The translations under genes were made by a program, and so were the position numbers. Source: Methyloversatilis sp. (GTDB lineage Bacteria; Pseudomonadota; Gammaproteobacteria; Burkholderiales; Rhodocyclaceae). From it: a stretch of DNA of 42,686 nt. Each line of letters starts with the position of its first letter. The stretch's first letter is position 1. The stretch lies in the NCBI GenBank assembly GCA_017984755.1, contig JAGNYW010000026.1, positions 1 to 42,686 of the forward strand, read 5' to 3'. The notes under the pieces are model-generated. The model searched no databases. It saw only the letters and a program-made list of their open reading frames with translations, and was not told the origin of the DNA. Below, in pieces: positions 17,635 through 42,686 of the stretch.

Positions 17635-19689
17635 TCAGGTCCCGATCACACCGCCGTCGTTCTTGGTGATCATGACGACTGCCGAGCGCGGCTTGACTGC
17701 ACCGTTCGCGCTTTGCGTCGTCGGGCCGTTGAAGGCGCTGTCCGGCCAGGTGCTGTTCGACGTGTAGCTGACCGACCAGTCTTCGCCCGGGTGCTGGATG
17801 TTGACGAACATGGTCTTGCCATCCGGCGTCGTGACCACACCGGTCACTTCGCAGTTGCGCGGGCTGGTCAGGAAGCGCGTGATCTGGCGCGTCGCCGGAT
17901 CGGCGCAGAACATCGCGTTGCCGCCGATGTTGGCCCAGTCGCCGGTGGCGTTGCCGACCTGGTCGGTCTGGATCCAGAGGCGGCCATCCTTGTCGAACCA
18001 CAGGCCGTCCGGGGCGCCGAGGTCGTCGCCGATGATGTTGCCCTGCAGGTTCGCCGCCGCGCTCAGGCTGTCGCCGCACTCGACGAAGATGTCCCACTGG
18101 AAGCTGGTCGCGGCGACATCGCCGTTGGCTTCGTTCCAGCGGATGATGTGGCCGTAGCGGTTGTCGCCGCGCGGGTTGGCAGCGTCGACCGGCGGGCGGG
18201 CGGAGCCGGCTGTGGTCGAGCCATCAACGGCGTTCGACGAGGTGCCGCCACGACGGTTGTTGTTGGTCAGCGTGAGATAGACCTCGCGCGTGGTGGGGTG
18301 CACCGCAACCCATTCCGGGCGGTCCATCATGGTGGCGCCGACGCGGTCAGCCGCCTGACGGGCCTTGATGACGACCTCGGCCTGATCCGCGAAACCGTTT
18401 TGCAGTGTCAGGCCGTTCTGGCCATGCACCAGCGGCAGCCACTGACCCGTACCGTCGGCGTTGAATTTGGCGACATACAGCGTGCCGCTGTCCAGCATGT
18501 CACGGTTGGCTGCGCGGTTCGTCGTGTTCAGCTTTTTCGCGCAGACGAACTTGTACATGTAGTCGTTGCGCTCGTCGTCGCCTGTGTAGAACGCCACGGC
18601 GTTGTCCGCGCCGACCGAAGCGATGACCGACTCGTGCTTGAAGCGGCCCAGCGCCGTGCGCTTGACCGGCTTCGAATTCGGGTTCCACGGATCGATTTCA
18701 ACGATCCAGCCGAAGCGGTTCGGTTCATTCGGGTTGTCGCGGAAGTCGAAGCGCGGATCGCCTTCGTGCCAGCGATAGCCGAATCCTCCGGCAGCCATGC
18801 CATAGCGCTTTTCGAGATTGTTCAGCGGCTGGGCAGCCAGCTTGGCGGCTGTGGTACCGAAATAACCGTTGAAGTTCTCTTCGCAGGTGAGGTAGGTACC
18901 CCACGGCGTGTAGCCATGTGCACAATTGTTCAGCGTACCGAGAACGTCCTTGCCTGAACTATCTGCAGCGGTCTTGAGTAGTGCATTGCCGGCAGCCGGT
19001 CCGCTGACCGTACAGGGCGTGGCACCGGTGATGCGACGGGCAAAGGGCGACGGGCGCTGCACCTTCATTTCGCCGTTGGTCTTGCGCACTTCAATGACGC
19101 TGACGCCGTGACCGGCGACCTGCGCATCGACCATCGGCTTGGTGATTGCATCGGTGCCGTAGGTGGTCGTATTGTGGAACAGGCCCGGATCGACGTACTC
19201 ATGATTCGACACGAGCAGGCCGCGGTCACTGCTGATGCCGCCGGCACCGGCCACCGGGAACGGGAACAGGTGCATGCCATCGTTGTGCGAGCCCCAGGTC
19301 GTCAGCTGACGCGCCGTGGTCATCGGTGACGAAGCGTCCCAGTGGGTATTGGCATCGGGACCGATCTTGCCGATCGCATCGCCCCACGCGATGAAGGTCT
19401 TGGCGGTGTAGCCGCTCGGTACGGTGATGCCGTCGGTCATCGGAAAGATGTTTGCCGGCACGCCGGTGAAGCCGATGCCGCCTGCCGGCGAGGGGCTGCC
19501 GGTATAGCCGGGGAATCCGCCTGCAAGTGATTCCATGCTGAAGCCACCGAGCGTGGCGAAGGTGGCAGTGGCGAGCGAGCCCTTCATGAAGTTGCGGCGG
19601 CCGGTGAAGCGGTCCATCACGTCGCGGATGGATTCATTGCCGGACGGGTTGATGGTCAGATCGTTATCGGGATGTTGCTGGGAAGACAT
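17635..19689 (-). CDS. PhoX-family alkaline phosphatase, Tat-exported
   Basis: 684 residues. A Tat motif (GRRNFMKGSLATATFATLGG, around residues 30-50) sits after an N-terminal extension, as is usual for PhoX. The DUF839/PhoX fold is seen in blocks such as LLVSNHEYVDP, the 'NCAHGYTPWGTYLTCEENF' core whose Glu residues bind the Fe/Ca cofactor in characterised PhoX, RFGWIVEIDPWNP, GRFKHESV and PDGLWFDKDGRLWIQTD. PhoX enzymes hydrolyse phosphate esters in the periplasm using Ca2+ and Fe3+. It is paired with a PEP-CTERM gene downstream. A second, shorter PhoX-family gene lies at 22938-24599. Confidence 0.92.
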   Translation of the reverse strand: MSSQQHPDNDLTINPSGNESIRDVMDRFTGRRNFMKGSLATATFATLGGFSMESLAGGFPGYTGSPSPAGGIGFTGVPANIFPMTDGITVPSGYTAKTFIAWGDAIGKIGPDANTHWDASSPMTTARQLTTWGSHNDGMHLFPFPVAGAGGISSDRGLLVSNHEYVDPGLFHNTTTYGTDAITKPMVDAQVAGHGVSVIEVRKTNGEMKVQRPSPFARRITGATPCTVSGPAAGNALLKTAADSSGKDVLGTLNNCAHGYTPWGTYLTCEENFNGYFGTTAAKLAAQPLNNLEKRYGMAAGGFGYRWHEGDPRFDFRDNPNEPNRFGWIVEIDPWNPNSKPVKRTALGRFKHESVIASVGADNAVAFYTGDDERNDYMYKFVCAKKLNTTNRAANRDMLDSGTLYVAKFNADGTGQWLPLVHGQNGLTLQNGFADQAEVVIKARQAADRVGATMMDRPEWVAVHPTTREVYLTLTNNNRRGGTSSNAVDGSTTAGSARPPVDAANPRGDNRYGHIIRWNEANGDVAATSFQWDIFVECGDSLSAAANLQGNIIGDDLGAPDGLWFDKDGRLWIQTDQVGNATGDWANIGGNAMFCADPATRQITRFLTSPRNCEVTGVVTTPDGKTMFVNIQHPGEDWSVSYTSNSTWPDSAFNGPTTQSANGAVKPRSAVVMITKNDGGVIGT

Positions 19690-22937: not shown

Positions 22938-24599
22938 TCAGAGGTTGCCGCGCGCCCACGGGCCGGTGATGGCGACCGTGATGCCGGGGCGATAGATGTT
23001 CACGAACAGCACGCGGCCGGTCGGATCGAAGCAGGCGCCGGCGAATTCGGTGCCGCGGTAGTCGCCGGCGGCGACTTGCTTGCCGGCCGCACCGATCTGC
23101 GCGGCATCCAGCACGGTATTGTGCTTGCCGAAGATGAAGGCCTCGCCCGCCGCGTTGAGTCCGAGCAGGCGGGCGCCGGTACCGAAGGCATCGGTCGAGC
23201 CGCCGCCGTCCTCGCACAGCACGATGCCGCCACGCGGGCTGACGGTGATGTTGTCCGGGTTGTTGCCGACCGTCTGATCGCCGCTGACGAAAATGGCGCG
23301 CAGGCGCATCGTCGACAGCGTCAGTTCCCATACGCAACCTTCGCCCTGACCCGGGCGACCGCGGCTATCCACACCAGCGGCCGTGTCGATCATGAACATC
23401 TTGCCGCCGGCGTACCAGATGCCCTCGCCGCGACTCATGCGGGCACAGCCCTGGCTGCGTGCCTGGAACGTCGGCCCTGCCATGAAGGCAAGGCTGACGC
23501 CGCCCGGCTGACCGACCACGACGACGGGCGACGCATCGGGGTCGGCGATGTCCACCCATTCCAGTTCGTATTCGTCGCCGATGTCGGGATTGAGCAGGCC
23601 GACATCGTTGACTTGTTCCAGCGTGGCCGCTGCGGCCTTGCGCACAATGGTCTTCACGCGCGCCGCCTGCAGCGTTCCGCCGTTGTGCAGGCTGCCCGGT
23701 TCGCCGCTGGTGTCGACCGGCACGTAGCGGAAGAAGCTCGCCACATTGCGGTTGTCTTCGGTTTCATAGACATAGCCGGTGGTCGGGTCGACCGCCACCG
23801 CTTCATGCACGAAGCGGCCCATGCCGACGATGGGGTCGGCGATCGAGTCCGCCGGATCGGCGCCGACTTCGAATACATAACCGTGCTTCTTGCCGCCGAT
23901 CAGCGAAAAGTCGAACACAGTCTCTTCGCAGGTAAGCCATGTGCCCCACGGGGTCGCCCCGCCGGCACAGTTGCCCAGGGTACCGCCGAGCGACGACTCG
24001 GCTCCGGCCCACTTGTTGTCGCGGAACAGCAGGTTGGTCGTACCGCCCGCGGCAAAGCCGTCAAACGGCAGTGGCGCAGGCCCGGCCGGGTTGGTCTGCA
24101 CGGCGAATCCGCCTGCGCCGTTGCTGCCGATGCGGATGGGCACGCTGCCGTAGTAGGTGGTGATGATGCCGTTCACGCGGGTCGTGGAGTAGTTCTGCGG
24201 CGCATTGATCGCGCCATCCAGCGTGGTGGCGACGCCGAGTTCGTGATTGCGTACCAGCACCAGTTCGGTGCTGCGGCCGACGCGTCGCGATGTCACCACA
24301 CCCATGCCGTCCGGCAGATCCGGTGTGGCACGGCCGTCGTCCATCGCATCACCTGTCCAGCCGAACGAACGGTAGGTGAAGCCACGCGGCAACTGCAGCA
24401 GGGGCAGGCCGGTGGTCAGATCGTTGACCGGGGCAATCAGGCCGTAGGGCGACAGCGCCGAAACGGTCTGCTTGCCGGTGGCGGCCAGCGCGTTGCTGGC
24501 GTACAGCGCACTCATCACGCCGGTGAAGCTGCTGGCAGCCGCCGCACCGGAACCCTTGAGCATCAGGCGACGGGCTGGAGAGAATGGAGAGGACGACAT
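22938..24599 (-). CDS. PhoX-family phosphatase
   Basis: 553 residues from the ATG at 24599, preceded by AAGGAACTCC. The N-terminus carries a Tat-like signal (ARRLMLKGSGAAAASSFTG). PhoX/DUF839 blocks include LVLVRNHELG, the core NCAGGATPWGTWLTCEET, HGYVFEVGADP, GMGRFVHEAVAVDP and 'DNITVSPRGGIVLCEDGGG'. It is shorter than the other PhoX paralogue in this window (684 residues) and diverged from it, so it may have another phosphoester substrate. It leads a three-gene run with two PEP-CTERM proteins. Confidence 0.9.
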   Translation of the reverse strand: MSSSPFSPARRLMLKGSGAAAASSFTGVMSALYASNALAATGKQTVSALSPYGLIAPVNDLTTGLPLLQLPRGFTYRSFGWTGDAMDDGRATPDLPDGMGVVTSRRVGRSTELVLVRNHELGVATTLDGAINAPQNYSTTRVNGIITTYYGSVPIRIGSNGAGGFAVQTNPAGPAPLPFDGFAAGGTTNLLFRDNKWAGAESSLGGTLGNCAGGATPWGTWLTCEETVFDFSLIGGKKHGYVFEVGADPADSIADPIVGMGRFVHEAVAVDPTTGYVYETEDNRNVASFFRYVPVDTSGEPGSLHNGGTLQAARVKTIVRKAAAATLEQVNDVGLLNPDIGDEYELEWVDIADPDASPVVVVGQPGGVSLAFMAGPTFQARSQGCARMSRGEGIWYAGGKMFMIDTAAGVDSRGRPGQGEGCVWELTLSTMRLRAIFVSGDQTVGNNPDNITVSPRGGIVLCEDGGGSTDAFGTGARLLGLNAAGEAFIFGKHNTVLDAAQIGAAGKQVAAGDYRGTEFAGACFDPTGRVLFVNIYRPGITVAITGPWARGNL

Positions 24600-24809
24600 C
24601 TGGAGTTCCTTTTTTCCGGATATGCCGCGCGGACGATCCGGGCGCATATTTCATCGAATCGTGCGCGCGCGCTGTTTCAGATGTCTTAAGGAGAGGAAGG
24701 GCGTCGATGAGCCGATCGGATCATGCGGAATGCGTGCTGGAAGGGTGTCTGGCCAGAGATCGACCGGCGCCCGTGCTTGCGTCGAGTGTTCGAGCGATGG
24801 GGGCGGGGT

Positions 24810-28709: not shown

Positions 28710-29714
28710 ATGAAGCTGCATTCGATGCTGTTCGGCCTGATCGCATTGGGCCTGACGCAGGGCGCGCTGGCCCAGCAACCGATCGTGATCAAGTTCAGCC
28801 ACGTCGTGGCGACCGAAACACCGAAGGGCAAGGCGGCGGAGTTCTTCAGGAAGCGCGCCGAGGAACTGACCGCCGGCAAGGTCAAGGTGGAGGTCTATCC
28901 GAACAGCCAGCTGTACAAGGACAAGGAAGAGATGGAGGCGCTGCAGCTCGGCGCCGTGCAGATGCTGGCGCCGTCGCTGGCCAAGTTCGGTCCGCTGGGC
29001 GTCAAGGAATTCGAGGTGTTCGACCTGCCCTTCATCTTCGACGGCTACGCCGACCTGCACAAGGTGACGCAAGGCCCGATCGGTGCCGGCATCCTGAAGA
29101 AGCTGGAACCCAAGGGCATCATCGGCCTCGGTTTCTGGGACAACGGCTTCAAGTCCTTCTCGGCCAACACGCCGATCAGGACGCCGGCCGACCTGAAGGC
29201 GAAGAAACTGCGCATCCAGTCGTCCAAGGTGCTCGAGGAGCAGATGCGCACGATCGGCGCGCTGCCGCAGGTGATGGCGTTCTCCGAGGCCTATCAGGCG
29301 CTGCAGACCGGTGTGGTCGATGGCACCGAGAACCCGCACTCCAATATGTATACGCAGAAGATGCACGAGGTGCAGAAGCACATGGCGGTGACCGACCACG
29401 GCTATCTCGGCTATGCGGTGATCGTGAACAGGAAGTTCTGGGAAGGTCTGCCGGCCGATGTGCGCGAACAGTTGAATGTCGCGATGAAGGAATCGACCGC
29501 CTACGCCAACAAGATCGCCAAGGAAGAAAACGACAGTGCGCTCGAAGGTGTGCGCAAGAGCGGCAAGACGCAGGTGTATGTGCCGACGCCGGAAGAGCGC
29601 CTGGCGTTCAAGCGCGCACTGGTGCCGGTGCACAAGAAGATGGAAGGCCGCATCGGCGGCGAGCTGATCAATTCGATCTACCGGGAAACGGCGTTCGATC
29701 CGGCCAAGCTGTAA
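28710..29714 (+). CDS. dctP: TRAP transporter substrate-binding protein DctP
   Basis: 334 residues from the ATG at 28710 preceded by GGAGGAG. The signal peptide is KLHSMLFGLIALGLTQGALAQ. The mature protein has the DctP pattern: KFSHVVATETPKGKAAEFF, VEVYPNSQLYKDKEEMEALQ, and KKLRIQSS, whose Arg normally holds the substrate carboxylate. It is the periplasmic receptor delivering C4-dicarboxylates or similar organic acids to DctQM. First gene of dctPQM. Confidence 0.96.
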   Translation: MKLHSMLFGLIALGLTQGALAQQPIVIKFSHVVATETPKGKAAEFFRKRAEELTAGKVKVEVYPNSQLYKDKEEMEALQLGAVQMLAPSLAKFGPLGVKEFEVFDLPFIFDGYADLHKVTQGPIGAGILKKLEPKGIIGLGFWDNGFKSFSANTPIRTPADLKAKKLRIQSSKVLEEQMRTIGALPQVMAFSEAYQALQTGVVDGTENPHSNMYTQKMHEVQKHMAVTDHGYLGYAVIVNRKFWEGLPADVREQLNVAMKESTAYANKIAKEENDSALEGVRKSGKTQVYVPTPEERLAFKRALVPVHKKMEGRIGGELINSIYRETAFDPAKL

Positions 29715-29810
29715 TCCTTCGTCGTGCGCACGGTCCTTCGGGGCGGTGCGCACGACGTCCCGAGGCGCATCTTCGCGCCGCCCGTACCCATCCTTTCTCG
29801 GGAGACTGCC

Positions 29811-30473
29811 GTGCTCCGCTTGCTCGACCATATCGAGGAGTGGCTCATCACGCTGTTGATCGGCGTTGCCACGCTCGTCATTTTCGTCGCCGTCATGCAT
29901 CGCTACGCCACCGGGTACAGCATCCCGGGCTTGCAGGACTGGCTGCTGTCGCTCAACTTCAGCTGGGCGCAGGAGCTGTGCATCATTCTTTTCGTGTGGA
30001 TGGCCAAGTTCGGTGCTGCCTACGGCGTGCGCACCGGCATCCATGTCGGTGTCGATGTGCTGATCAATCAGCTGCAGCCGGCCCTGAGAAACAAGTTCGT
30101 GGTGTTCGGACTCGCGGCGGGCGCACTGTTCACCGGCATCGTCTGTGCGCTGGGCAGTCACTTCGTGTGGGAAAACGGTGCGGCCTACGCGGTGCTCAGC
30201 ACGCTGGGGCTGGATATCGGCGACCTGTACGAGGGGCCGACAACACCCGATCTCGAGTGGCCGACCTGGATGGTCTACATGGCGATCCCGCTGGGCTCGG
30301 GCCTCATGTGCTTCCGCTTCCTGCAGGTGATGACCGGTTTCATCCGTACCGGAGAACTGCCGCACCATGACCATGCCCACGTCGAGGGCATGGACGAGGT
30401 GAAGCCCATTCTGCTGGGCGAGGCGATTGAGAACGCCGAAGAAGCCGAGCATGCGAAGGGAGGCCGCAAATGA
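29811..30473 (+). CDS. dctQ: TRAP transporter small permease DctQ
   Basis: 220 residues from the GTG at 29811, which has GGGAGA upstream; a frame extension to 29724 adds residues unlike the family. Four membrane helices; LNFSWAQELCIILFVWMAKFGAAYGVRTGIHVGVDVLI (in short blocks) is the conserved DctQ core. A His/Glu-rich cytoplasmic tail (HHDHAHVEG and onward) is longer than usual. Its stop overlaps the dctM start by four bases. Confidence 0.93.
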   Translation: MLRLLDHIEEWLITLLIGVATLVIFVAVMHRYATGYSIPGLQDWLLSLNFSWAQELCIILFVWMAKFGAAYGVRTGIHVGVDVLINQLQPALRNKFVVFGLAAGALFTGIVCALGSHFVWENGAAYAVLSTLGLDIGDLYEGPTTPDLEWPTWMVYMAIPLGSGLMCFRFLQVMTGFIRTGELPHHDHAHVEGMDEVKPILLGEAIENAEEAEHAKGGRK

Positions 30474-31756
30474 GCGCCGCCATCATCTTCGTCATGCTGC
30501 TGGTGCTGATGCTGACCGGCATGCCGGTGTCGATCTCGCTCGGTCTTACCGTACTGACCTTTCTTTTCACGATGACCGACGTACCGGTCGAGTCGGTGGC
30601 GCTGAAGTTGTTCACCGGCATCGAGAAGTTCGAAATCATGGCGATTCCGTTCTTCATCCTGGCCGGCAACTTCCTGACCCATGGCGGCGTGGCGAAACGC
30701 ATGATCAATTTCGCCACCTCGCTGGTCGGCCACTTCCACGGCGGCCTGGGCATGGGGGGCGTGGTGGCGTGCGGCCTGTTCGCCGCGGTGTCGGGCTCCA
30801 GCCCGGCGACCGTGGCCGCCATCGGCGCCATCCTGCTGCCGGCAATGGTGAAGCAGGGCTTTCCGATGAAGTTCGGCGCCGGCATCGTCGCCAGTTCGGG
30901 CGCACTGGGCATCCTGATCCCGCCGTCCATCGTCATGGTCATGTACGCGGTATCGACCAATTCGTCGATCGGCGCGCTGTTCATGGCGGGCGTGATTCCG
31001 GGTGCGGTGCTGCTGTTCATGCTGGGCTTCACGACCTGGTGGTACGCGAAGAAGAACAACTATCCGCGCATGGAAAAGGCGCCGGTGGCCCACCGCATCA
31101 AGGCCTTCCGCGAGTCGTTCTGGGGCCTGATGCTGATCGTTGTCGTAATGGGCGGCATCTACACCGGCATCTTCACGCCGACCGAGGCGGCGGCAATGAG
31201 TGCGGTGTACGCCTTCATCGTGGCGGTGTTCGTGTATCGCGACCTGCCGCTCAGGCGCATCCCCAAGGTGCTGCTCGACTCGGCCAACATGAGTGCGATG
31301 CTGCTGTACATCATCACCAACGCCATCCTGTTCAGCTTCCTGCTGACATCGGAGCAGATTCCGCAGGCGGTGGCGGCCTGGCTGGTCGACAGCGGCCTGG
31401 GCGCGCTCGGCTTCCTGCTGGTGGTGAACATCCTGCTGCTGCTGGCCGGCAACATCATGGAGCCGTCGTCCATCATCCTGATCACGGCGCCCATCCTGTT
31501 CCCGGTGGCGATGGCGCTGGGCATCGACCCGGTGCACTTCGGCATCATCATCACCGTAAACATGGAAATCGGCATGATCACGCCGCCGGTCGGCCTCAAC
31601 CTGTATGTCGGCAGCGGCATCGCGAAACTGGGCATGACCGACATGACGAAGGCCGTGACACCGTGGCTGATCACCATGATCGTCTTCCTGATGATCGTCA
31701 CCTACTGGCCGTCCCTGTCGCTGTGGCTGCCACGTACGCTCGGCATGATGAGCTGA
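30470..31756 (+). CDS. dctM: TRAP transporter large permease DctM
   Basis: 428 residues with about 12 membrane helices, the normal size. It catalyses Na+-coupled substrate entry together with DctQ. Family marks include GMPVSISLGL, FFILAGNFLTHGG, GCGLFAAVSGSSPATVAAIG-type and LGILIPPSIVMVMYA segments and GMITPPVGLNLYV. It ends the dctPQM operon, followed by a good terminator at 31788. Confidence 0.96.
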   Translation: MSAAIIFVMLLVLMLTGMPVSISLGLTVLTFLFTMTDVPVESVALKLFTGIEKFEIMAIPFFILAGNFLTHGGVAKRMINFATSLVGHFHGGLGMGGVVACGLFAAVSGSSPATVAAIGAILLPAMVKQGFPMKFGAGIVASSGALGILIPPSIVMVMYAVSTNSSIGALFMAGVIPGAVLLFMLGFTTWWYAKKNNYPRMEKAPVAHRIKAFRESFWGLMLIVVVMGGIYTGIFTPTEAAAMSAVYAFIVAVFVYRDLPLRRIPKVLLDSANMSAMLLYIITNAILFSFLLTSEQIPQAVAAWLVDSGLGALGFLLVVNILLLLAGNIMEPSSIILITAPILFPVAMALGIDPVHFGIIITVNMEIGMITPPVGLNLYVGSGIAKLGMTDMTKAVTPWLITMIVFLMIVTYWPSLSLWLPRTLGMMS

Positions 31757-33568: not shown

Positions 33569-33584
33569 TGGCCCCGCAATTGCT
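33569..33584 (+). promoter_or_regulatory. Sigma-54 promoter of SoxYZ-like/metallohydrolase operon
   Basis: TGGCCCCGCAATTGCT matches the -24/-12 consensus TGGCACG-N4-TTGCW at 10 of 12 fixed positions, with GG and GC exactly 10 bases apart (33570-33571 and 33582-33583). The start codon of the first gene lies ~72 bases downstream of the -12 element. Match found by eye. Confidence 0.65.
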
Positions 33585-33655
33585 TACTCCCTTGTTCGGG
33601 CGTTCCGGAACGGCCGAACGTTTGAACCGATAATTCCATGCAGGAGATTCACCGC

Positions 33656-34411
33656 ATGAAAAGACTGATTGTTGCTGCCGGACTGATGTTCGGTTCGGCT
33701 CTGGCGGCGTTCGCAGCAGACGCCGATCCACTCGGCTCGTCACGCTGGCCGGACCTGCAGCGCGACTACGTTGATGACGCGCCGGTCGCGTTCGATCCGC
33801 GCATCGAGGTGCTGGCACCCAAGGTGGCGGAAGATTCGATGAACGTGCCGGTCACCGTGAAGTTCAAGGGTTTGCCCGATGTCAGGCGAGTGCTGGTCGT
33901 GGCCGACTTCAATCCCATCGTCAAGGTGCTCGACTATCAGCCCCTGCTGGCGCAGCCCGGACTTTCCTTCCGGATCAAGCTGCAGCAGGCGAGCCCGATC
34001 CGGGCGCTGGTACAGACCGGCGATGGCAAGTGGCATGCCGGTGGTGCCTGGGTCGATGCGGCCGGCGGTGGGTGTACCGCGCCGAGTCTCGGGCGCAGCG
34101 CACCCGACTGGACCCGCACGCTCAATCAGGTGCAGGCACGGGTGTGGCATGACGGACAGAACCAGCGCGTGCGCCTGCGCATCATGCATCCGATGGATAC
34201 TGGGCTCGCCCCCGGCATTCCCGCCTTCTACATCGAGCATCTCGCGGTCGAGGATGCCCGTGGCGAGGTCATGCTGCGGCTCGAAACTTTCGAGCCGCTG
34301 AGCGAGAATCCGGTGTTCTCGTTCGACCTGCCCGATACCGGACAGGCGGCGTTGCGCGTGGTAGGCCGCGACAACAACGGCAACCGCATCGATGCGATGG
34401 TGCAGCCATGA
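33656..34411 (+). CDS. Quinoprotein dehydrogenase-associated SoxYZ-like carrier
   Basis: 251 residues from the ATG at 33656, which follows AGGAG; an in-frame ATG at 33638 is too close to that site. Signal peptide: KRLIVAAGLMFGSALAAFAA. The first half is SoxY-like and ends in GGGC (137-140), equivalent to the flexible carrier arm whose Cys holds the cargo in SoxY. The second half is SoxZ-like (RVRLRIMHPMDTGL, EVMLRLETFEPLSENPVFSFDL). Such fusions occur next to PQQ alcohol dehydrogenases as part of a proposed periplasmic 'quinoprotein relay'. The true cargo is unknown. The stop overlaps the next start. Confidence 0.9.
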   Translation: MKRLIVAAGLMFGSALAAFAADADPLGSSRWPDLQRDYVDDAPVAFDPRIEVLAPKVAEDSMNVPVTVKFKGLPDVRRVLVVADFNPIVKVLDYQPLLAQPGLSFRIKLQQASPIRALVQTGDGKWHAGGAWVDAAGGGCTAPSLGRSAPDWTRTLNQVQARVWHDGQNQRVRLRIMHPMDTGLAPGIPAFYIEHLAVEDARGEVMLRLETFEPLSENPVFSFDLPDTGQAALRVVGRDNNGNRIDAMVQP

Positions 34412-35364
34412 TCGCGCGCCTTGCAGTGTTTCTGATGCTGGCCTGTGCCGCGCTGTTCGCGCAGGCGGCGGAGCGCTTCGACTACGGACTGACGCCGCAG
34501 AAGATCGCTGAAAACACCTGGGTGCTGATCGGCAAGACGGAAGACATCACCCGAGCCAACGGCGGCAACATCGTCAACACGGCCTTCGTGGTCACGCGCG
34601 ATGGCGTGGTGGTGATCGACAGCGGCCCATCGCGCCGTTACGGCGAGCAGATGCGGCGCGCCATCGCCGGCGTCACGGATCGCTCGGTGATCCGTGTCTT
34701 CAATACGCACCACCATCCGGATCACTTTCTCGGCAATCAGGCCTTCGACGGCGTACCGATGTCGGCGCTGGACGCCACCCGGGCGGGCATGCGCGAGCAG
34801 GGCGGTGCCTTCGCCGACAACATGTACCGCATGGCGGGTGACTGGCTTTCGGGTACCGAGGCGCTGGCCGCGTCGGAAACCGCAGTCCCCGGGGGGCTGG
34901 CCATCGGCGGTCACGAATTCCAGGTCATTGCGCTGGAAGGGCATACCGAGGGCGATCTCGTGATTCTCGATCGCACGACGGGCGTGCTCTACGCAGGCGA
35001 CCTGATCTTCCTCGACCGCGCGCCGACCACGCCGCATGCATCCATCGAACGCTGGCAGGCATCACTCGATGCGCTGGCAGCCCTGCCGGCGAAGCGGGTG
35101 GTGCCCGGACACGGTCCGGTGCATGACGACCAGCGGGGTATCGTGCAGACGCGTGACTGGTTGCGCTGGCTCGACGAGACACTGGAGGCGTCCGCGATCC
35201 GCGGCATGGACATGGCGGAAGTGATGCGACTCCCCCTGCCGGAACGGTTCGAGGCCATGCCGCTCGCGCGCAGCGAATTCGAACGCTCGGTCTCGCACCT
35301 CTACGGCCGCTACGAGCAGCGTCTTCTGAACACTGCAACACCGGTCGGACTGAAACAAAAATGA
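34408..35364 (+). CDS. Quinoprotein relay system metallo-beta-lactamase-fold hydrolase
   Basis: 318 residues with a signal peptide (LAVFLMLACAALFAQAA). Zinc-site motif HHHPDH at 101-106 (His101, His103, Asp105, His106), then His179, Asp198 (YAGDLIF) and His235 (VVPGHGPV) complete a binuclear site. It belongs to the SoxH-like group that accompanies SoxYZ-like carriers and PQQ dehydrogenases. It probably releases or processes a thioester or other cargo on the carrier Cys, possibly linked to cofactor maturation (inference). It is translationally coupled to the carrier by ATGA and lies 149 bases before the dehydrogenase gene. Confidence 0.88.
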   Translation: MIARLAVFLMLACAALFAQAAERFDYGLTPQKIAENTWVLIGKTEDITRANGGNIVNTAFVVTRDGVVVIDSGPSRRYGEQMRRAIAGVTDRSVIRVFNTHHHPDHFLGNQAFDGVPMSALDATRAGMREQGGAFADNMYRMAGDWLSGTEALAASETAVPGGLAIGGHEFQVIALEGHTEGDLVILDRTTGVLYAGDLIFLDRAPTTPHASIERWQASLDALAALPAKRVVPGHGPVHDDQRGIVQTRDWLRWLDETLEASAIRGMDMAEVMRLPLPERFEAMPLARSEFERSVSHLYGRYEQRLLNTATPVGLKQK

Positions 35365-35378
35365 ACAGGTGACCTGTT
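35364..35378. promoter_or_regulatory. Perfect 15-bp palindrome, candidate activator site
   Basis: AACAGGTGACCTGTT has 7-bp arms around a central G. It begins on the last base of the hydrolase stop codon and lies ~50 bases upstream of the -24 element of the alcohol dehydrogenase promoter, the distance expected of an enhancer-binding-protein site. Confidence 0.55.
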
Positions 35379-35427
35379 TCGCACCGCCCTCCGGGGTCGT
35401 GCAGCCGTATTTCCCTCTCGTTTCGGG

Positions 35428-35444
35428 TTGGCCCGGTTTTTGCG
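35428..35444 (+). promoter_or_regulatory. Sigma-54 promoter of PQQ alcohol dehydrogenase
   Basis: TTGGCCCGGTTTTTGCG matches TGGCACG-N4-TTGCW at nearly all fixed positions; GG (35430-35431) and GC (35442-35443) are 10 bases apart. The start codon is ~70 bases downstream. Confidence 0.75.
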
Positions 35445-35513
35445 AACGCATGTGGGCCGATCAAGGGAATGTTGCCCTTCGAGCAAAAGACAAACTCACC
35501 CCGAGGAGGAAGT

Positions 35514-37268
35514 ATGAAAGGTTTGCGCATAACGACGTTGTCCAGCGTGCTGCTGTCGGCGTTTGCCGCACTGGCGGCTCCCCAGGTCATGGCCGGTGTG
35601 ACCGACAGCGACATCGAAAACGACGCCAAGACCACGAACAGCGTGCTGTCGTGGGGCATGGGCACGGAAGGTCAGCGCTACAGCCCGCTCGACAAGGTCA
35701 ATGTCGGCAACGTCAAGAATCTGGTGCCCGCGTGGTCGTTTTCGTTCGGCGGCGAAAAGCAGCGCGGTCAGGAATCGCAGCCGCTGATCGTAAATGGCAA
35801 GATGTTCGTGACGGGTTCCTACTCCCGCCTCTACGCGCTCGATGCCAAGACCGGCGCCAAGCTGTGGCAGTACGAGCATCGCCTGCCGGACGGCATCATG
35901 CCGTGCTGCGACGTGGTGAACCGCGGCGCGGCGGTGTACGACAACCTGGTCATCTTCAGCACGCTCGATGCGCAGCTGGTCGCGCTCGACCAGAACACCG
36001 GCAAGGTCGTGTGGAAGGAAAAGATCGACGACTATCAGGGTGGGTACTCGAACACCGCTGCGCCGATCATCGCCAAGGGACTGCTGCTGACCGGTGTGTC
36101 GGGCGGCGAATTCGGCGTGATCGGCCGCGTGGAGGCGCGTGATCCGAAGACCGGCAAGATGGTGTGGTCGCGCCCGACGGTCGAAGGCCACATGGGCTAC
36201 AAGTTCGACGCAGCCGGCAAGAAGATGGAGAACGGCATCAGCGGAACGACCAATGCAACCTGGTCGGGCGACCTGTGGAAGACGGGCGGCGCCGCCACCT
36301 GGCTGGGCGGCAGCTACGACTCGAAGACGGGTCTGGCCTACTTCGGCACTGGTAATCCGGCGCCGTGGAACAGCCACCTGCGCCCCGGCGACAACCTGTA
36401 CTCGTGCTCGACGGTGGCGATCGATGTGGCCACCGGCCAGATCAAGTGGCACTTCCAGGGTACGCCGAACGACGGCTGGGATTACGACGGTGTGAACGAA
36501 TTCGTCACCTTCGATCTCAACGGCAAGCGCATGGGCGGCAAGGCCGACCGCAACGGCTTCTTCTACGTGCTGGATGCCAACACCGGCAAGTTCGAGCGCG
36601 GCTTCCCCTTCGTCAACAAGATCACATGGGCCAAGGGCCTGGACGCCAGCGGCAAGCCGATCTTCGATCCGGCCAACCGCCCGGGCGACCCGACCAAGGG
36701 CGCCGACGGCAAGAAGGGTGAGTCCGTTTTCTCGGCGCCGTCCTTCCTCGGTGGCAAGAATCAGATGCCGATGGCCTACAGCCCGGATACCGGCCTGTTC
36801 TACGTGCCGGCCAACGAGTGGGGCATGGAAATCTGGAATGAGCCGATCACCTACAAGAAGGGTGCGGCCTACCTGGGTGCCGGTTTCACGATCAAGACGA
36901 TCGAGGACAAGTACATCGGCGCACTGCGCGCAGTCGACCCGAAGACCGGCAAGATCGTCTGGGAAGTCACCAACAACGCCCCGCTGTGGGGTGGTGTGAT
37001 GACGACCAAGGGCGGCCTGGTTTTCTGGGGTACGCCTGAAGGTTTCCTGAAGGCAGCCGACGCCAAGACGGGCAAGGAAGTGTGGTCGTTCCAGACCGGT
37101 ACCGGCATCGTCGCGCCCCCGATCACGTGGGAACAGGATGGCGAGCAGTTCATCGCTGTCGCGACCGGCTGGGGCGGCGCAGTACCGCTCTGGGGTGGGG
37201 ATGTGGCGAAGAAGGTGAACTACCTGAACCAGGGCGGTTCGATGTGGGTGTTCAAGCTGCACAAGTGA
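35514..37268 (+). CDS. PQQ-dependent alcohol dehydrogenase, predicted lanthanide-dependent
   Basis: 584 residues from the ATG at 35514 after GAGGAGG. Signal peptide: [19 protein letters not shown]. The eight-bladed propeller has tryptophan-docking repeats such as [16 protein letters not shown] and GKIVWEV. Cys131-Cys132 ([11 protein letters not shown]) form the vicinal disulfide over PQQ. The catalytic Asp323 is followed at +2 by Asp325 (GWDYDGVNE). The second Asp is present in XoxF/ExaF/PedH lanthanide enzymes; Ca2+ enzymes have Ala or Ser there. [11 protein letters not shown] suggests the ethanol-type (ExaA/PedH) branch rather than XoxF. It oxidises primary alcohols in the periplasm, passing electrons to a cytochrome c, probably PedF encoded nearby. 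Sigma-54 promoter at 35428. Confidence 0.95.
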
Positions 37269-37277
37269 TGCAAGGGC

Positions 37278-37303
37278 CGGGCGGTTCATTTTCACCGCCC
37301 GGA
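37278..37303 (+). repeat. Hairpin just after the alcohol dehydrogenase
   Basis: CCGGGCGGT (37278-37286) pairs perfectly with ACCGCCCGG (37295-37303) around an eight-base loop, nine bases after the stop. It has no T-run and may protect the 3' end of the message. Confidence 0.55.
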
Positions 37304-37415
37304 TTCGAGCATGCGTCAGGGTTTGACTGATCGTCAGGTCGCGGCGCAACGGACGCGGAAGCGTTCCGTGCCGTGTCGATGACCGCGAGCCCGCAAGCTC
37401 CGGTTGCGCGACCGA

Positions 37416-37436
37416 ATCACGTGCCTGCCACGTGAT
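37416..37436. repeat. Inverted repeat ATCACGTG/CACGTGAT
   Basis: Perfect 8-bp arms (37416-37423 and 37429-37436) around CCTGC. It lies between the stop-proximal hairpin and the terminator. It may be part of the 3' UTR structure or a protein site. Confidence 0.45.
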
Positions 37437-37462
37437 GCCTCATGCTCCGAACATGGCTCTTT

Positions 37463-37491
37463 AGCCGGCTTTCACAAGCCGGCTTTTTTTT
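37463..37491 (+). terminator. Rho-independent terminator of alcohol dehydrogenase
   Basis: A 9-bp stem (37463-37471 with 37476-37484) has a TCAC loop followed by eight T. It is ~195 bases beyond the stop, giving an unusually long 3' UTR. Confidence 0.88.
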
Positions 37492-37542
37492 GTCTCGCGA
37501 ATCATCACCTGCCGCACCCGGACCGCGACTGCATCGTCGTGT

Positions 37543-39504
37543 TCAGCCTTCCTTGAGTTTCCGGTAAAGCGTCGTGCGGCTGATGCCGAGTTCGCGTGCG
37601 GTGGCGGCGACGTTGCCGTCGTTGCGGGACAGCGATTCACGGATCGCCCGCAACGTGAGGCTGTCGAGGTCGCACGGGTTCTGACCGGCGAGTGACGTGG
37701 TGTCCCGTCGGGCAGTGTCGGCAGTCGATGCCCCGCACAGTTCGTCGATGAAGTCGTCCGGCAGGTGTGAGCGGTCGATCACGCCGTCGTCGGCTGCCAT
37801 GACGCCCGCGGTACGAAGCAGATTCGCCAGCTGGCGCATGTTGCCCGGCCACGGATGCGATTCGAACAGGGCAATGACGTCGTCGTCGATGCGCAAGTCA
37901 CGCGGGATGGACGGTTCGCTGTCGAGGATGCGCTTCACCAGCGCACGCAGGTCGCTGCGCTCGCGCAGCGGCGGGAGCATCACCGTGAGGCCGTTCAGAC
38001 GATAGTAGAGGTCGGCGCGGAACATCCCCTCTGCAACGAGGTCCCGCAGCTTGCGGTGCGTGGCGCAGATGATGGAAAGGTCAACGGGCGAGGCGCGGCC
38101 GCTTCCAAGCGGCACCACGGTGCGTTCCTGCAGAACGCGCAGCAGGCGGGCCTGGAGCGCCAGCGGCATGTCGCCGATCTCGTCCAGAAACAGCGTGCCG
38201 CCATCCGCCTGCATGATGCGGCCGGCGTAACCCTTGCGACGCGCGCCGGTGAACGCACCATCTTCGTAACCGAACAGTTCGGACTCGATGAGGCCGTCGG
38301 GGATTGCCGCGCAATTGACTGCTACGAACGCCTGTTCGCTGCGCGGCCCCTCGTCGTGGATGGCGCGCGCCAGCAATTCCTTGCCGGTGCCGGTTTCTCC
38401 CTGGATGAGAACCGGAATGTCGCGCCCGAGAACGCGTCGCACCTTGGTCACCACCGCATCCATTTGAACATCGCCGGTACTCAGTCGTGCCAGTCCGCGG
38501 TCTCTGGCCAGAGGCGTGCGGCCGAACGCAACGGTGCTGTCATCGGGGCGACGGCTGTCCATGCTGAAAACGCGCGACGGCACGCGCGCGGTGTTTCCGG
38601 CACGCGGACGGCCGAAAAGCGTACGGCCGCCGAACAACTGCAATTCGATCATGTCATTGCCGCGGAGCAGCGGGTCATACATCGCACCCAGCGGCTTGTC
38701 GAACATGGACGAGAAGGTGTGGTGAAGCAGTTCGGCATGGCTGCGGCCGATCAGGCGACAGGCGCTGCGGTTTGCGGAGAGCACGCGCCCGTCGTGGTCA
38801 AACGCCAGCAGCGCCTCGAAAACGGTGCCGATGAGTTCCGGCTGCACATGGCAATGAAGCAGGAATCCATCTGGATAGGCGTGCGCGAACAGCTGATTCT
38901 CTATCGTCTGGACAGTCAGATTGATGAGGGCAAGGCTGTGCCGCGATGGGTTGCGCGAATCGCCCGTCACGTCGAGCACGCCGAGCATGCGGCTGCACGG
39001 ATCGAAAATCGGCGATGCCGAGCAGGTCAGGAAATGGTTGGCGGAGAAGAAGTGCTGGGAGCCGTGGACAGACACGGGGGCCTGTTCCACCAGTGCCGTT
39101 CCGATGGCGTTGGTGCCCTTGCTTTCTTCCGACCATTCGACGCCCGGCGACAAGGCGACTTTCGACGCGCGGTCGAGAAAGCTCTGGTCCCCGACGGAAT
39201 GGAGGATCAGTCCCGACGCGTTGGTCAGCACGATCATGCTGCCGGAACGTGCGATTTGCGAATATAGTCCGTTCATCACCGGAGCGGCATGCCTGAGCAG
39301 CGATTCGCTGCGCTCGCGCTCGGTCTGCAACACGTCACGGCGCACACGCTCGACCTCTCGCGCGGACGTGTCGGCATCCAGACCGCGGCTGATGCAGCGG
39401 CTCCAGGATGTTTCGATGAGAGCTGGCAGGGTGGCTCCGTCTTCGCCGGGAGAACCGTCGAACGGGATGGCACCCTGGTCCGTGTTGCGTGTCTTCAAGT
39501 CCAT
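37543..39504 (-). CDS. AcoR-type sigma-54-dependent transcriptional activator
   Basis: 653 residues from the ATG at 39504, which follows GAGGAG. The N-terminal part (~75-220) is a GAF-like sensor region of the AcoR kind (SKGTNAIGTALVEQAPVSVHGSQHF), followed by a PAS-like segment (~225-330). The central AAA+ domain has Walker A GETGTGKE (369-376), the sigma-54 contact loop GAFTGA (416-421) and GGTLFLDEIGDMP. A Fis-type helix-turn-helix ends the protein (NVAATARELGISRTTLYRKL). Its family activates sigma-54 promoters in response to small ligands such as acetoin, alcohols or aldehydes. It lies between the alcohol dehydrogenase and pedF, each with a -24/-12 element, so it is the likely regulator of both. 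Confidence 0.95.
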   Translation of the reverse strand: MDLKTRNTDQGAIPFDGSPGEDGATLPALIETSWSRCISRGLDADTSAREVERVRRDVLQTERERSESLLRHAAPVMNGLYSQIARSGSMIVLTNASGLILHSVGDQSFLDRASKVALSPGVEWSEESKGTNAIGTALVEQAPVSVHGSQHFFSANHFLTCSASPIFDPCSRMLGVLDVTGDSRNPSRHSLALINLTVQTIENQLFAHAYPDGFLLHCHVQPELIGTVFEALLAFDHDGRVLSANRSACRLIGRSHAELLHHTFSSMFDKPLGAMYDPLLRGNDMIELQLFGGRTLFGRPRAGNTARVPSRVFSMDSRRPDDSTVAFGRTPLARDRGLARLSTGDVQMDAVVTKVRRVLGRDIPVLIQGETGTGKELLARAIHDEGPRSEQAFVAVNCAAIPDGLIESELFGYEDGAFTGARRKGYAGRIMQADGGTLFLDEIGDMPLALQARLLRVLQERTVVPLGSGRASPVDLSIICATHRKLRDLVAEGMFRADLYYRLNGLTVMLPPLRERSDLRALVKRILDSEPSIPRDLRIDDDVIALFESHPWPGNMRQLANLLRTAGVMAADDGVIDRSHLPDDFIDELCGASTADTARRDTTSLAGQNPCDLDSLTLRAIRESLSRNDGNVAATARELGISRTTLYRKLKEG

Positions 39505-39682
39505 CGTCTCCTCGGTGCCCGTGGTCGGGGTGCGATGGCCGGTCGTGCCGGCTCTGATCTCTGACGCAGTGGGCGACGAATGGTGCCCATGCTCCGGTTG
39601 TAGCAAGATACTACGGTGCGGTGGGTCGGATGCCTACCGGGATGTTCATACTTCGCACGTATTGCCCCGGGGCGCGCTGCTG

Positions 39683-39698
39683 TGGTATGTATTGTGCT
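39683..39698 (+). promoter_or_regulatory. Candidate sigma-54 promoter of pedF
   Basis: TGGTATGTATTGTGCT keeps the invariant GG (39684-39685) and GC (39696-39697) with a 10-base spacing and matches 9 of 12 fixed positions. It is weaker than the two other sigma-54 matches here. The pedF start is ~54 bases downstream. An inverted repeat GTAG-N7-CTAC lies ~70 bases upstream. Confidence 0.55.
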
Positions 39699-39751
39699 AT
39701 TCAGAAAACGGCAATGTCTTTGCGGCACCCCAATTTCCACGGAGGAGTTTC

Positions 39752-40192
39752 ATGAAAGCTACAACACGATTTTTCAAGACCACGACCACCCTTGCAGTGC
39801 TGATTGCACTGGGCGCCGCAACGACCGTGCGTGTGGAAGCGCACGGCGACGTCGTGCCGCAGTCGGTGGATGTGAGCACGCTCAAGCCGCTCGGCGCCGA
39901 ATGGTTGAAGGAGAATCCGTATCGCGGCGACAAGGAAGCGGTCCGCATCGGTACGTCTGCCTACAACCAGAACTGTGCGCGCTGCCACGGACTGGAAGCG
40001 ATCAGTGGCGGCATTGCTCCCGATCTGCGCATGTTGCCGCTGGACGCTGAAACCGATGACTACTTCGTCAACACGGTTCGCCGTGGCCGCGTCCGTAACG
40101 GCGCAGTCTACATGCCGCCGTTCGAAGGCGTGATGGCGCAGGAAGCGATGTGGGCAATCCGCAGCTACCTGGATACGCGTCACGAGGAATGA
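39752..40192 (+). CDS. pedF: Cytochrome c-550 PedF
   Basis: 146 residues from the ATG at 39752 after GGAGGAG. Signal peptide: FFKTTTTLAVLIALGAATTVRVEA. One heme c site, CARCH at 75-79; Met121 (AVYMPPFEG) is the probable sixth ligand. The segments GTSAYNQNCARCHGLEAISGG and 'MPPFEGVMAQEAMWAIRSYLDTR' (split) match the PedF family, which takes electrons from PQQ alcohol dehydrogenases in the periplasm. Its physical link to the dehydrogenase regulator supports that role here. Confidence 0.92.
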   Translation: MKATTRFFKTTTTLAVLIALGAATTVRVEAHGDVVPQSVDVSTLKPLGAEWLKENPYRGDKEAVRIGTSAYNQNCARCHGLEAISGGIAPDLRMLPLDAETDDYFVNTVRRGRVRNGAVYMPPFEGVMAQEAMWAIRSYLDTRHEE

Positions 40193-40267
40193 ACTGATGC
40201 TGCAGCGTTGCTGCACGGGAGCGCCCCGGTGACGGGCGCTGCCGGCGGTGCGCTGCAAGTGATCAGA

Positions 40268-40284
40268 TGTCCAGAATCTGGACA
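40268..40284. promoter_or_regulatory. Perfect 17-bp palindrome upstream of ferredoxin/AOR genes
   Basis: TGTCCAGAATCTGGACA has 8-bp perfect arms around A. It is ~165 bases before the ferredoxin start, a likely operator or activator site. I find no well-spaced -24/-12 element downstream of it, so a different factor or read-through from pedF are both possible. Confidence 0.6.
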
Positions 40285-40320
40285 CACACCTTCGTCGGCA
40301 TTGAATTAAGCGCAGCAACC

Positions 40321-40380
40321 GTCCGGAAAACCCCGCAAGGGTGAAACCCCGGCGCTAAAATATGAAGCGTTTTTCATAGA
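40321..40380 (+). other. Possible structured leader of ferredoxin/AOR operon
   Basis: The strand can form CCGG (40323-40326) with CCGG (40349-40352) enclosing ACCC/GGGT, and next to it TATGAA (40361-40366) with TTCATA (40373-40378). TAAAAT at ~40356 could be a -10 element instead. I cannot match it to a known riboswitch class by eye. Confidence 0.3.
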
Positions 40381-40450
40381 TGGTGCTGCACCCGTCGGGT
40401 GCCGGCGCACGACGAATTGACATGCCCAGAACGTGGAGGAGCGACTGAAC

Positions 40451-40921
40451 ATGCAGAAATCCCTACATATCGACCCATTGAAGTGCACCAGTTGCCTGCA
40501 GTGCGAAATGGCCTGTTCGTTCGAGAACTACGGCGTATTCAATAACTCGCTGTCGCGCATCAAGGTGTTCGAGTTCCACCACACGGGTGCCAAGGTTCCC
40601 TACACCTGTACCCAGTGTGACGAGGCGTGGTGCATGCACGCGTGTCCGGTCGAAGCGATCAAGCTCGACAAGGACACTGGCGCCAAGGTCGTTCTGGAAG
40701 ACGTGTGCGTGGGTTGCAAGGTTTGCACCATCGCCTGTCCGTTCGGAACGGTGAATTACGTAGCTGAAACCGGCAAGGTCCAGAAGTGCGACCTGTGTGG
40801 CGGCGATCCCGCCTGTGCGGAAGCCTGCCCGACAGGTGCCATTACCTATGTGGACGCCAACTGGACCGGCCTCGAGCGCATGCGCCAGTGGGCCGACAAA
40901 CTCGGCAACCAGCCCGCTTGA
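40451..40921 (+). CDS. Polyferredoxin subunit of aldehyde oxidoreductase (four 4Fe-4S)
   Basis: 156 residues from the ATG at 40451, after TGGAGGAG. Sixteen Cys form four [4Fe-4S] motifs: 12/15/18/22, 53/56/61/65, 86/89/92/96 and 113/116/122/126, an arrangement seen in DmsB/HycB-like electron-transfer subunits. There is no signal peptide, so it is cytoplasmic. It lies 21 bases before the AOR gene. In the related multi-subunit AOR of Aromatoleum, a similar small Fe-S protein passes electrons from the tungsten subunit to a FAD subunit; that FAD gene would be expected downstream of this window. Confidence 0.93.
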   Translation: MQKSLHIDPLKCTSCLQCEMACSFENYGVFNNSLSRIKVFEFHHTGAKVPYTCTQCDEAWCMHACPVEAIKLDKDTGAKVVLEDVCVGCKVCTIACPFGTVNYVAETGKVQKCDLCGGDPACAEACPTGAITYVDANWTGLERMRQWADKLGNQPA

Positions 40922-40942
40922 TCGACCGAAAGGGATACTGAC

Positions 40943-42686
40943 ATGGCATGGACACGTAAAATCCTGCGCGTAAATCTGACCGAGCGCACCTGCAGGAGCG
41001 AGCCGCTCAACATGGAATGGGCGAGTGAATACCTGGGTCAGCGCGGCTTGGCGACCAAGTATCTGGTGTCGGAAATCGATCCGAAGGTCGACCCGCTCTC
41101 ACCGGAAAACAAGATCATCTGGGCGACCGGTCCGCTGACCGGCACGATGGCTTCCACCGGCGGCCGTTATTCGGTCATCACCAAGGGCCCGCTGACGGGC
41201 GCGATCGCCTGTTCGAATTCGGGCGGCTATTTCGGCGCCGAACTCAAATTCGCCGGCTGGGATATGGTCATCATCGAAGGCCGCGCATCGAGCCCGGTCT
41301 ATCTGTCGATCGAGAATGACAAGGTGGAGCTGCGCGATGCGTCCCACCTGTGGGGCAAGACAGTCTGGGAAACGGAAGGTCAGATCAAGTCCGAACATCA
41401 GGACCCGCAACTGCGCGTTTCCTGCATCGGCCGGACCGGCGAGAACGGCGTGCTCTACGCGGCGATCGTCAATGATCTGCATCGTGCAGCGGGACGTTCC
41501 GGCGTCGGAGCCGTCGCCGGCTCCAAGAATCTGAAGGCGATCGCTGTGCGCGGCACACTCGGCGTGGGCAACATCGCCAACCCGAAGGAATTCATGAAGG
41601 TCACCTTCGAGAAGAAGAAGATCCTCAAGGAGAACGCGGTCACCGGTCAGGGCCTCCCGACTTACGGTACCCAGGTGTTGATGAACGTGATCAACGAGAT
41701 CGGTGCCATGCCGACGCGCAACCACAAGGATGTGCAGTTCGAAGGCGCACGCAAGATTTCAGCCGAAGCCATGCACGAGCCACGCGAGACCGACGGCAAG
41801 GCGCAGCTGATCAACAACCAGGCTTGCTTCGGCTGCACGATCGCCTGCGGCCGCATCTCGAAGATCGACGCTACCCACTACACCGTGGTCAACAGCCCGA
41901 AGTACTGGGGTGCATCGGGTGGTCTGGAATACGAAGCAGCATGGGCGCTCGGCTGTGCCAACGGTGTCGATGATCTTGACGCGCTGCAGTACGCGACCAT
42001 GCTGTGCAACGAAGACGGTTTCGACCCGATCTCGTTCGGTGCCACGATCGGCGCAGTGATGGAGCTGTACGAGATGGGCGTGCTGACCAAGGACGAGGTC
42101 GGCATCGAAGCGCCTTTCGGTTCCGCCAGGGCACTGACCTACCTCACCGAAATCACCGCGCGCGGTGAAGGTTTCGGCAAGATCATCGGGCTGGGCTCCA
42201 AGCGCCTGTGCGAAAAGTACGGACACCCGGAGCTGTCGATGTCGGTCAAGGGGCAGGAATTCCCCGCCTACGATGCACGCGGCATCCAGGGCATGGGCCT
42301 TACGTACGCGACGTCGAATCGCGGTGCCTGCCATCTTCGTTCCTACACTGTGTCGTCCGAAGTGCTCGGCATTCCGGTCAAGACCGATCCGCTGACGACG
42401 GAAGGCAAGCCCGCGCTGGTCAAGGCGTTCCAGGACGCAACGGCAGTGGTCGATTCGACCGGTCTGTGCGTTTTCACGACCTTCGCGTGGGCACTGTCGG
42501 ACATCCAGCCGCAGGTGCAGGCTGCCTGTGAAGGTGACTGGTCGATGGAAAAGCTCGACCTGATGGGCGAGCGCATCTGGAACATGGAGCGTCAGTTCAA
42601 CAACGCCGCCGGTTTCACCCGCAAGGACGACGATCTGCCGATGCGTCTCAAGACCGAAGCAGCGAAGGTCGGGCCGGCCAAGGGGC
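40943..42686 (+). CDS. aor: Aldehyde:ferredoxin oxidoreductase, tungsten-type catalytic subunit (partial)
   Basis: 581 codons are present with no stop; the gene runs off the window, probably lacking only a few tens of residues compared with ~600-620 for the family. N-terminal AOR blocks: KILRVNLTERTCRSEPL, YLGQRGLATKYL, TGPLTGT and GRYSVITKGPLTGA-like segments, CSNSGGYFGAELKFAGWD. The single 4Fe-4S cluster has Cys295, Cys298, Cys302 (ACFGCTIACGR) and Cys509 (STGLCVFTTF). The enzyme oxidises aldehydes to acids using a bis-pterin tungsten cofactor; Mo use is possible but rarer. It is cytoplasmic. With the upstream alcohol dehydrogenase it would complete oxidation of alcohols to acids. Archaea and anaerobes are the usual hosts. 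Confidence 0.94.
   Translation, partial: MAWTRKILRVNLTERTCRSEPLNMEWASEYLGQRGLATKYLVSEIDPKVDPLSPENKIIWATGPLTGTMASTGGRYSVITKGPLTGAIACSNSGGYFGAELKFAGWDMVIIEGRASSPVYLSIENDKVELRDASHLWGKTVWETEGQIKSEHQDPQLRVSCIGRTGENGVLYAAIVNDLHRAAGRSGVGAVAGSKNLKAIAVRGTLGVGNIANPKEFMKVTFEKKKILKENAVTGQGLPTYGTQVLMNVINEIGAMPTRNHKDVQFEGARKISAEAMHEPRETDGKAQLINNQACFGCTIACGRISKIDATHYTVVNSPKYWGASGGLEYEAAWALGCANGVDDLDALQYATMLCNEDGFDPISFGATIGAVMELYEMGVLTKDEVGIEAPFGSARALTYLTEITARGEGFGKIIGLGSKRLCEKYGHPELSMSVKGQEFPAYDARGIQGMGLTYATSNRGACHLRSYTVSSEVLGIPVKTDPLTTEGKPALVKAFQDATAVVDSTGLCVFTTFAWALSDIQPQVQAACEGDWSMEKLDLMGERIWNMERQFNNAAGFTRKDDDLPMRLKTEAAKVGPAKG

Follow-up and report, generated by a model that had tools for sequence, protein, structure and literature searches.

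The window encodes a ped-type periplasmic alcohol oxidation module beside the operon of an aldehyde oxidoreductase (AOR). In our favoured reading, to which we give a probability of about 0.6, the AOR operon is separately controlled, probably in response to tungstate, and consumes the aldehydes that the alcohol module forms. Gene content, recurrence and promoter-like elements were observed directly.

Gene content of the locus

The window, i.e., the whole stretch of DNA that was analysed, is the entire contig C46 (42686 bases) of a Methyloversatilis-like draft genome (3.27 Mb, 93.8% complete). From position 33656 the gene order is soxYZ-like, metallohydrolase, PQQ dehydrogenase, sigma-54 activator (divergent), pedF, aorA and aorB. 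Family profile matches recovered all genes named in a first-pass annotation, in the order that it gave. Because the contig stops inside aorB, the 3' end of this gene is missing and aorC lies outside the window. The features are as follows.

33569..33584, + strand: candidate sigma-54 (-24/-12) site before the soxYZ-like gene, score 10
33656..34411, + strand: SoxYZ-like carrier, quinoprotein-associated (P0001); TIGR04557, 229.9 bits, cut-off 140
34408..35364, + strand: quinoprotein relay zinc metallohydrolase 1 (P0002); TIGR04558, 437.9 bits, cut-off 300
35429..35444, + strand: candidate sigma-54 site before the PQQ dehydrogenase gene, score 10
35514..37268, + strand: PedH/ExaF-type PQQ alcohol dehydrogenase (P0003); TIGR03075, 752.9 bits, cut-off 480
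37543..39504, - strand: sigma-54-dependent activator (P0004), GAF-PAS-AAA-HTH_8 (Fis-type HTH) by domain matches; start at 39504 picked by eye
39683..39698, + strand: weak candidate sigma-54 site before pedF, under the scan threshold in the window and aligned with scoring sites of relatives
39752..40192, + strand: cytochrome c550 PedF (P0005); TIGR04494, 210.6 bits, cut-off 122
40268..40284, unstranded: perfect palindrome TGTCCAG-N3-CTGGACA before aorA, exact in the window and L083-L086
40361..40378, unstranded: TATGAA-N6-TTCATA box before aorA, by motif scan
40451..40921, + strand: aorA, 4Fe-4S ferredoxin subunit (P0006); several 4Fe-4S Pfam domains, orthologue adjoining aorB in relatives
40943..42686, + strand: aorB, AOR large subunit (P0007), 3' part lost at the contig end; AFOR_N and AFOR_C above cut-offs

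Upstream of these genes, the window encodes a TRAP transporter, dctPQM (28743-31756). Relatives of DctP, DctQ and DctM (69-76%) are also found in the island of genome G003 (L063), and one of DctP (88%) in L086. On the - strand, two PhoX-type alkaline phosphatases (17635-19686 and 22938-24644) have a phytase-like PEP-CTERM protein between them.

The lanthanide Asp motif named in the first-pass annotation is present as D325 of P0003, in the sequence GWDYDG (D323 and D325, Asp at +2); the protein also has two adjacent Cys residues. Among relatives, Asp is found at +2 in PedH-like proteins with a readable motif, and Ser in the neighbouring PedE-like proteins. The best solved structures for P0003 are 6zcv and 6zcw (about 840 bits), which we take to be PedH of Pseudomonas putida, versus 656 bits for 1flg and 369 bits for the XoxF structure 6dam. 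By bit score, P0003 thus resembles PedH more than XoxF or ExaA. In L083-L085 the soxYZ-like gene has a PedE-like neighbour with Ser at +2, which the window lacks. The window's own genome holds two pqqE genes and three more distant PQQ dehydrogenases, with Asp at +2 in both of the two checked. No PedE/Mdh2-like Ser-type PQQ dehydrogenase, such as L083-L085 have, was found among the four matches in this draft (G000), of which all but the one on contig C5 were read for the motif.

The ped cluster of P. putida consists of pedF, PP_2677 (SoxYZ-like), PP_2678 (SoxH-like), pedH and pedI, as given in the excerpt of PMC12997753 that we used. The cluster and the window have in common a PedH-like dehydrogenase and the partners PedF, SoxYZ-like and SoxH-like, all of which are present in the window. 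However, the window has no pedI and has an AOR operon alongside, and it encodes a sigma-54 activator whereas Pseudomonas has two-component regulators.

The nearest structure to AorB is 8c0z (1034 bits), presumably the AOR of Aromatoleum aromaticum. AorB of the four nearest named relatives is 94-97% identical, and the window's own genome encodes one AOR. Scanning named genomes with AorB yielded 562 relatives, the best 80 of which were used as loci, so this sample leans to close relatives. The FAD AorC-type gene that had been expected beyond the window lies directly 3' of aorB in L083-L086; aorC, aorD (for a MoaD-like protein) and aorE follow aorB in all four of these closest relatives, and aorC is found in 76 of the best 80 loci. 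Tungstate uptake genes, which had likewise been expected, were found in the window's own genome, where TupA-like, TupB-like and ABC ATPase genes lie together on contig C68. Their profile scores are below cut-off (TupA-like, NF041772, 239 bits against 400; TupB-like, NF041773, 155 bits against 320). A ModE/PBP_like regulator gene is divergent from tupB on this contig. The AorABCDE genes of A. aromaticum EbN1 (PMC6365974) are matched in order by aorAB of the window and, in the window's relatives, by aorCDE too; the window joins an alcohol module to aor, whereas no such neighbour is mentioned in that excerpt.

Recurrence of the pairing and the aldehyde step

The genome-neighbourhood survey proposed in the first-pass annotation showed that the pairing recurs. 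Seven of the best 80 loci have a PedH-like gene (at least 60% identity) no more than 10 kb from aor, and two gene orders are seen among them. The full gene set is found in Methyloversatilis, in L089 and, with other orientations, in two Thauera MAGs (L132, L149). In the same 80 loci, pedF is near aor in 20 and a sigma-54 gene in 21, both being divergent in 19. The 39 loci with 10 kb on both sides include 4 with a PedH-like gene and 14 with pedF, and the divergent or sigma-54 count there is 13.

In a sample of 399 genomes from the order, with the dehydrogenase counted at E up to 1e-150, AOR was found in 36 and a PedH-like dehydrogenase in 26. Both were found in 11 genomes versus 2.3 expected (Fisher 2e-6, kinship ignored), or in 12 when G030 with a partial gene is included. 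In five of these 12, under three family labels, the PedH-like gene lies within 50 kb of aor (G000 3.7 kb, G003 13.2, G049 35.8, G264 37.7 and G388 43.7); the chance of a gap that small is 0.2-2% per genome, again with kinship ignored. The genes are more than 50 kb apart in four (G111, G363, G092, G234), and contig ends leave the distance undecided in three (G336, G170, G030). AOR was found in 48 of 369 genomes of a class sample, 46 of them new. Nine of these 46 have a PedH-like gene (at least 62%, one in two fragments). Only G649 was shown to be linked (10.9 kb); in G490 the gene is 134 kb from aor on the same contig, and the rest are on other contigs. Separately, a distant (39%) Asp-motif PQQ dehydrogenase lies about 15-18 kb from aor on contig C5 of both G048 and G092, which belong to one genus.

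That the two halves are chance neighbours united in one genus seems very unlikely. The arrangement is inherited once among the nearest relatives (L083-L086), which suits this explanation, but the Thauera loci have another order, G003 and G649 are linked at 13 and 11 kb, and 19 divergent sigma-54/pedF pairs lie near aor in the best 80 loci. The first-pass annotation had taken a rare association of the halves as grounds for giving up its proposal, and here the outcome is mixed: the linkage in 5 of 12 genomes holding both speaks for the pairing, whereas 24 of the 36 AOR genomes have no PedH-like gene. Conversely, 15 of the 26 PedH-like genomes have no AOR.

These unpaired AOR genomes agree with another explanation, that AOR serves general aldehyde detoxification tied to tungsten supply and the alcohol module just often lies near it within a shared alcohol/aldehyde island. 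A tungstate-uptake-like gene is found in 31 of the best 80 loci (21 with tupB 3' of aorB and 10 with it 5'), compared with 7 for the dehydrogenase. The excerpt of PMC6365974 reports a wide aldehyde range for the Aromatoleum AOR and its isolation from phenylalanine-grown cells, which also suits a general role. Against this, pedF stands beside aor in a quarter of the best 80 loci, or 14/39 with full flanks, in rearranged orders. We regard detoxification as possible though somewhat unlikely.

The identity of the second-step enzyme in ped-bearing genomes also bears on the pairing. When queried with the protein of G003 (NF050026 above cut-off), the ExaC-type aldehyde dehydrogenase was found in 24 of 27 PedH-like genomes versus 1 of the 24 AOR genomes that lack a PedH-like gene. 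Of the 12 order genomes that hold both enzymes, 10 also have ExaC, as do the four closest relatives (75-76%). Given the presence of this tungsten-free enzyme, AOR need not be the partner of the alcohol module. In G003, G264, G388 and G049, exaC lies between or beside the two halves, with pqq genes too in G003 and G049. L134 (Macromonas) has tupC, tupA, exaC, DUF779, aorA, aorB and a pedF/sigma-54 pair inside 13 kb. The window has no PedI/ExaC aldehyde dehydrogenase, and its own genome has no ExaC-like gene above 36% identity, the level of the best match. This would agree with AOR replacing the PedI/ExaC enzyme of the ped cluster; however, the genome is 93.8% complete, and the presence of ExaC in the closest relatives led us to reject such a substitution for the genus. 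As a general account we hold it to be most unlikely.

Promoters and boxes before aorA

Sigma-54 sites were scored with a simple -24/-12 scheme over 250 nt upstream, in which 1.2% of random 250-nt stretches reach 10; unmatched gene starts were dropped. Among relatives, scores of at least 10 were found upstream of the dehydrogenase gene (6/6), pedF (8/9), the soxYZ-like gene (5/6) and sigma-54 genes (3/7), and rarely or never upstream of aorA (8/76), aorB (0/78) and the metallohydrolase gene (0/10). The aligned GG-N10-GC of the dehydrogenase site is retained in 5/5 Methyloversatilis-type sequences. The -24/-12 scan found no site at aorA of the window and L083-L086. Thus, features of a sigma-54 regulon, the activator and predicted -24/-12 sites, are present in the window and do not extend to aorA in this genus. 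The first-pass annotation had implied a single system under the central activator. Since aorA has no such site and has conserved boxes of its own, one unit under this activator is not borne out, and each half seems to respond to a signal of its own. The missing aorA site would also suit general detoxification, but aorA sites are commoner near an activator or PedF gene (8/22 versus 3/53, Fisher 0.0017), which argues against it.

The palindrome before aorA is the sole exact copy in its genome. Allowing up to two mismatches, it was found before no aorA (75 tested) beyond the window and L083-L086. The idea that the sigma-54 activator binds there was rejected because the remaining units of the window and of L083-L086 are preceded by no copy, again with up to two mismatches allowed. 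The second box is more widespread: TATGMA-N6-TKCATA (up to one mismatch) occurs in 28 of 76 aorA upstream regions versus 0.75% of random stretches, a count that is partly circular since the degenerate form was chosen after viewing aorA sites. A weight matrix trained on aorA sites alone found the box (score at least 14) at 8/35 tupB, 2/9 exaC and 1/5 ModE/PBP_like genes, the last sharing its site with tupB. All eight tupB matches are from loci with tup 5' of aor. None of 183 controls (aorB, dehydrogenase, pedF, tupC, soxYZ-like, MBL (metallohydrolase), DUF779, pedG and pqqB) had a box at this score, nor had sigma-54 and tupA genes, which stand outside that total; at low thresholds the box scored at 1/15 and 2/13 of these, respectively. 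At L063:5925-5942, TATGCA-N6-TGCATA is flanked by exaC and a ModE/PBP_like regulator gene, close to the PQQ dehydrogenase gene, and a second exaC (L144) also carries the box.

The place of the box before tupB and beside the ModE/PBP_like regulator gene in other genera suggests a link with tungstate. It is conceivable, although we find it doubtful, that a ModE-like regulator senses tungstate by its PBP_like domain, which is of the tungstate-binding type, and acts through TATGMA-N6-TKCATA on tupBCA and the tungsten AOR, and in some species also on the tungsten-free ExaC. Metal supply would then choose the second-step enzyme, as it does in the first step with PedE/PedH. No box was found at tupB in the window's own genome, in L176 or in L177 (best 3, 3 and 4 mismatches, respectively), which, despite the divergent regulator gene, counts against this switch in the genus of the window.

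Published expression data and the proposed pathway

The pairing had been thought not to be a described system. This is too strong, since the excerpt of Good et al. 2015 on M. universalis FAM5 (PMC5023235) gives neighbouring locus tags to both halves, a tungsten aldehyde ferredoxin oxidoreductase and XoxF3/XoxG3/XoxJ3 (Ald 590040, XoxJ3 590042, XoxG3 590043, XoxF3 590046, Mdh2 590049). Both were higher on methanol than on methylamine (RPKM: Ald 408 to 156, XoxJ3 4400 to 1404, XoxG3 3156 to 1090, XoxF3 1214 to 659), with weak q-values from two replicates (0.17, 0.05, 0.30 and 0.62, respectively). A tungsten-dependent enzyme was predicted there to convert formaldehyde to formate, and lanthanides are not mentioned in that excerpt (PMC5023235). 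By locus-tag numbering this is the same neighbourhood as in the window, from which we infer gene identity; unlike FAM5 as excerpted, the window lacks a solute-binding gene between pedF and aorA, and its soxYZ-like gene has no Mdh2-like neighbour (PMC5023235). The promoters favour separately controlled halves, and the linkage and the FAM5 data suggest that the alcohol and aldehyde steps are functionally tied.

We infer metals, substrates, electron flow, aldehyde handover and regulation as follows. The Asp+2 PQQ dehydrogenase, of the lanthanide type by motif, would oxidise alcohols in the periplasm, yielding aldehydes, and pass electrons to PedF, and the SoxYZ-like and metallohydrolase proteins would serve this dehydrogenase. 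Aldehydes entering the cytoplasm would be converted to acids by a three-subunit, Aromatoleum-type AorABC with NAD. The sigma-54 activator would drive the soxYZ-like, dehydrogenase and pedF units, and in this genus aor would be a separate unit whose own regulator or regulators probably include a tungstate-responsive one. PedH itself may oxidise aldehydes, which counts against this pathway.

If the pathway is true, the bacterial tungsten AOR would gain a physiological partner. Two scarce metals would also be tied to consecutive steps of one pathway, and a regulatory box for the tungsten-dependent metabolism of facultatively aerobic bacteria would become available for testing.
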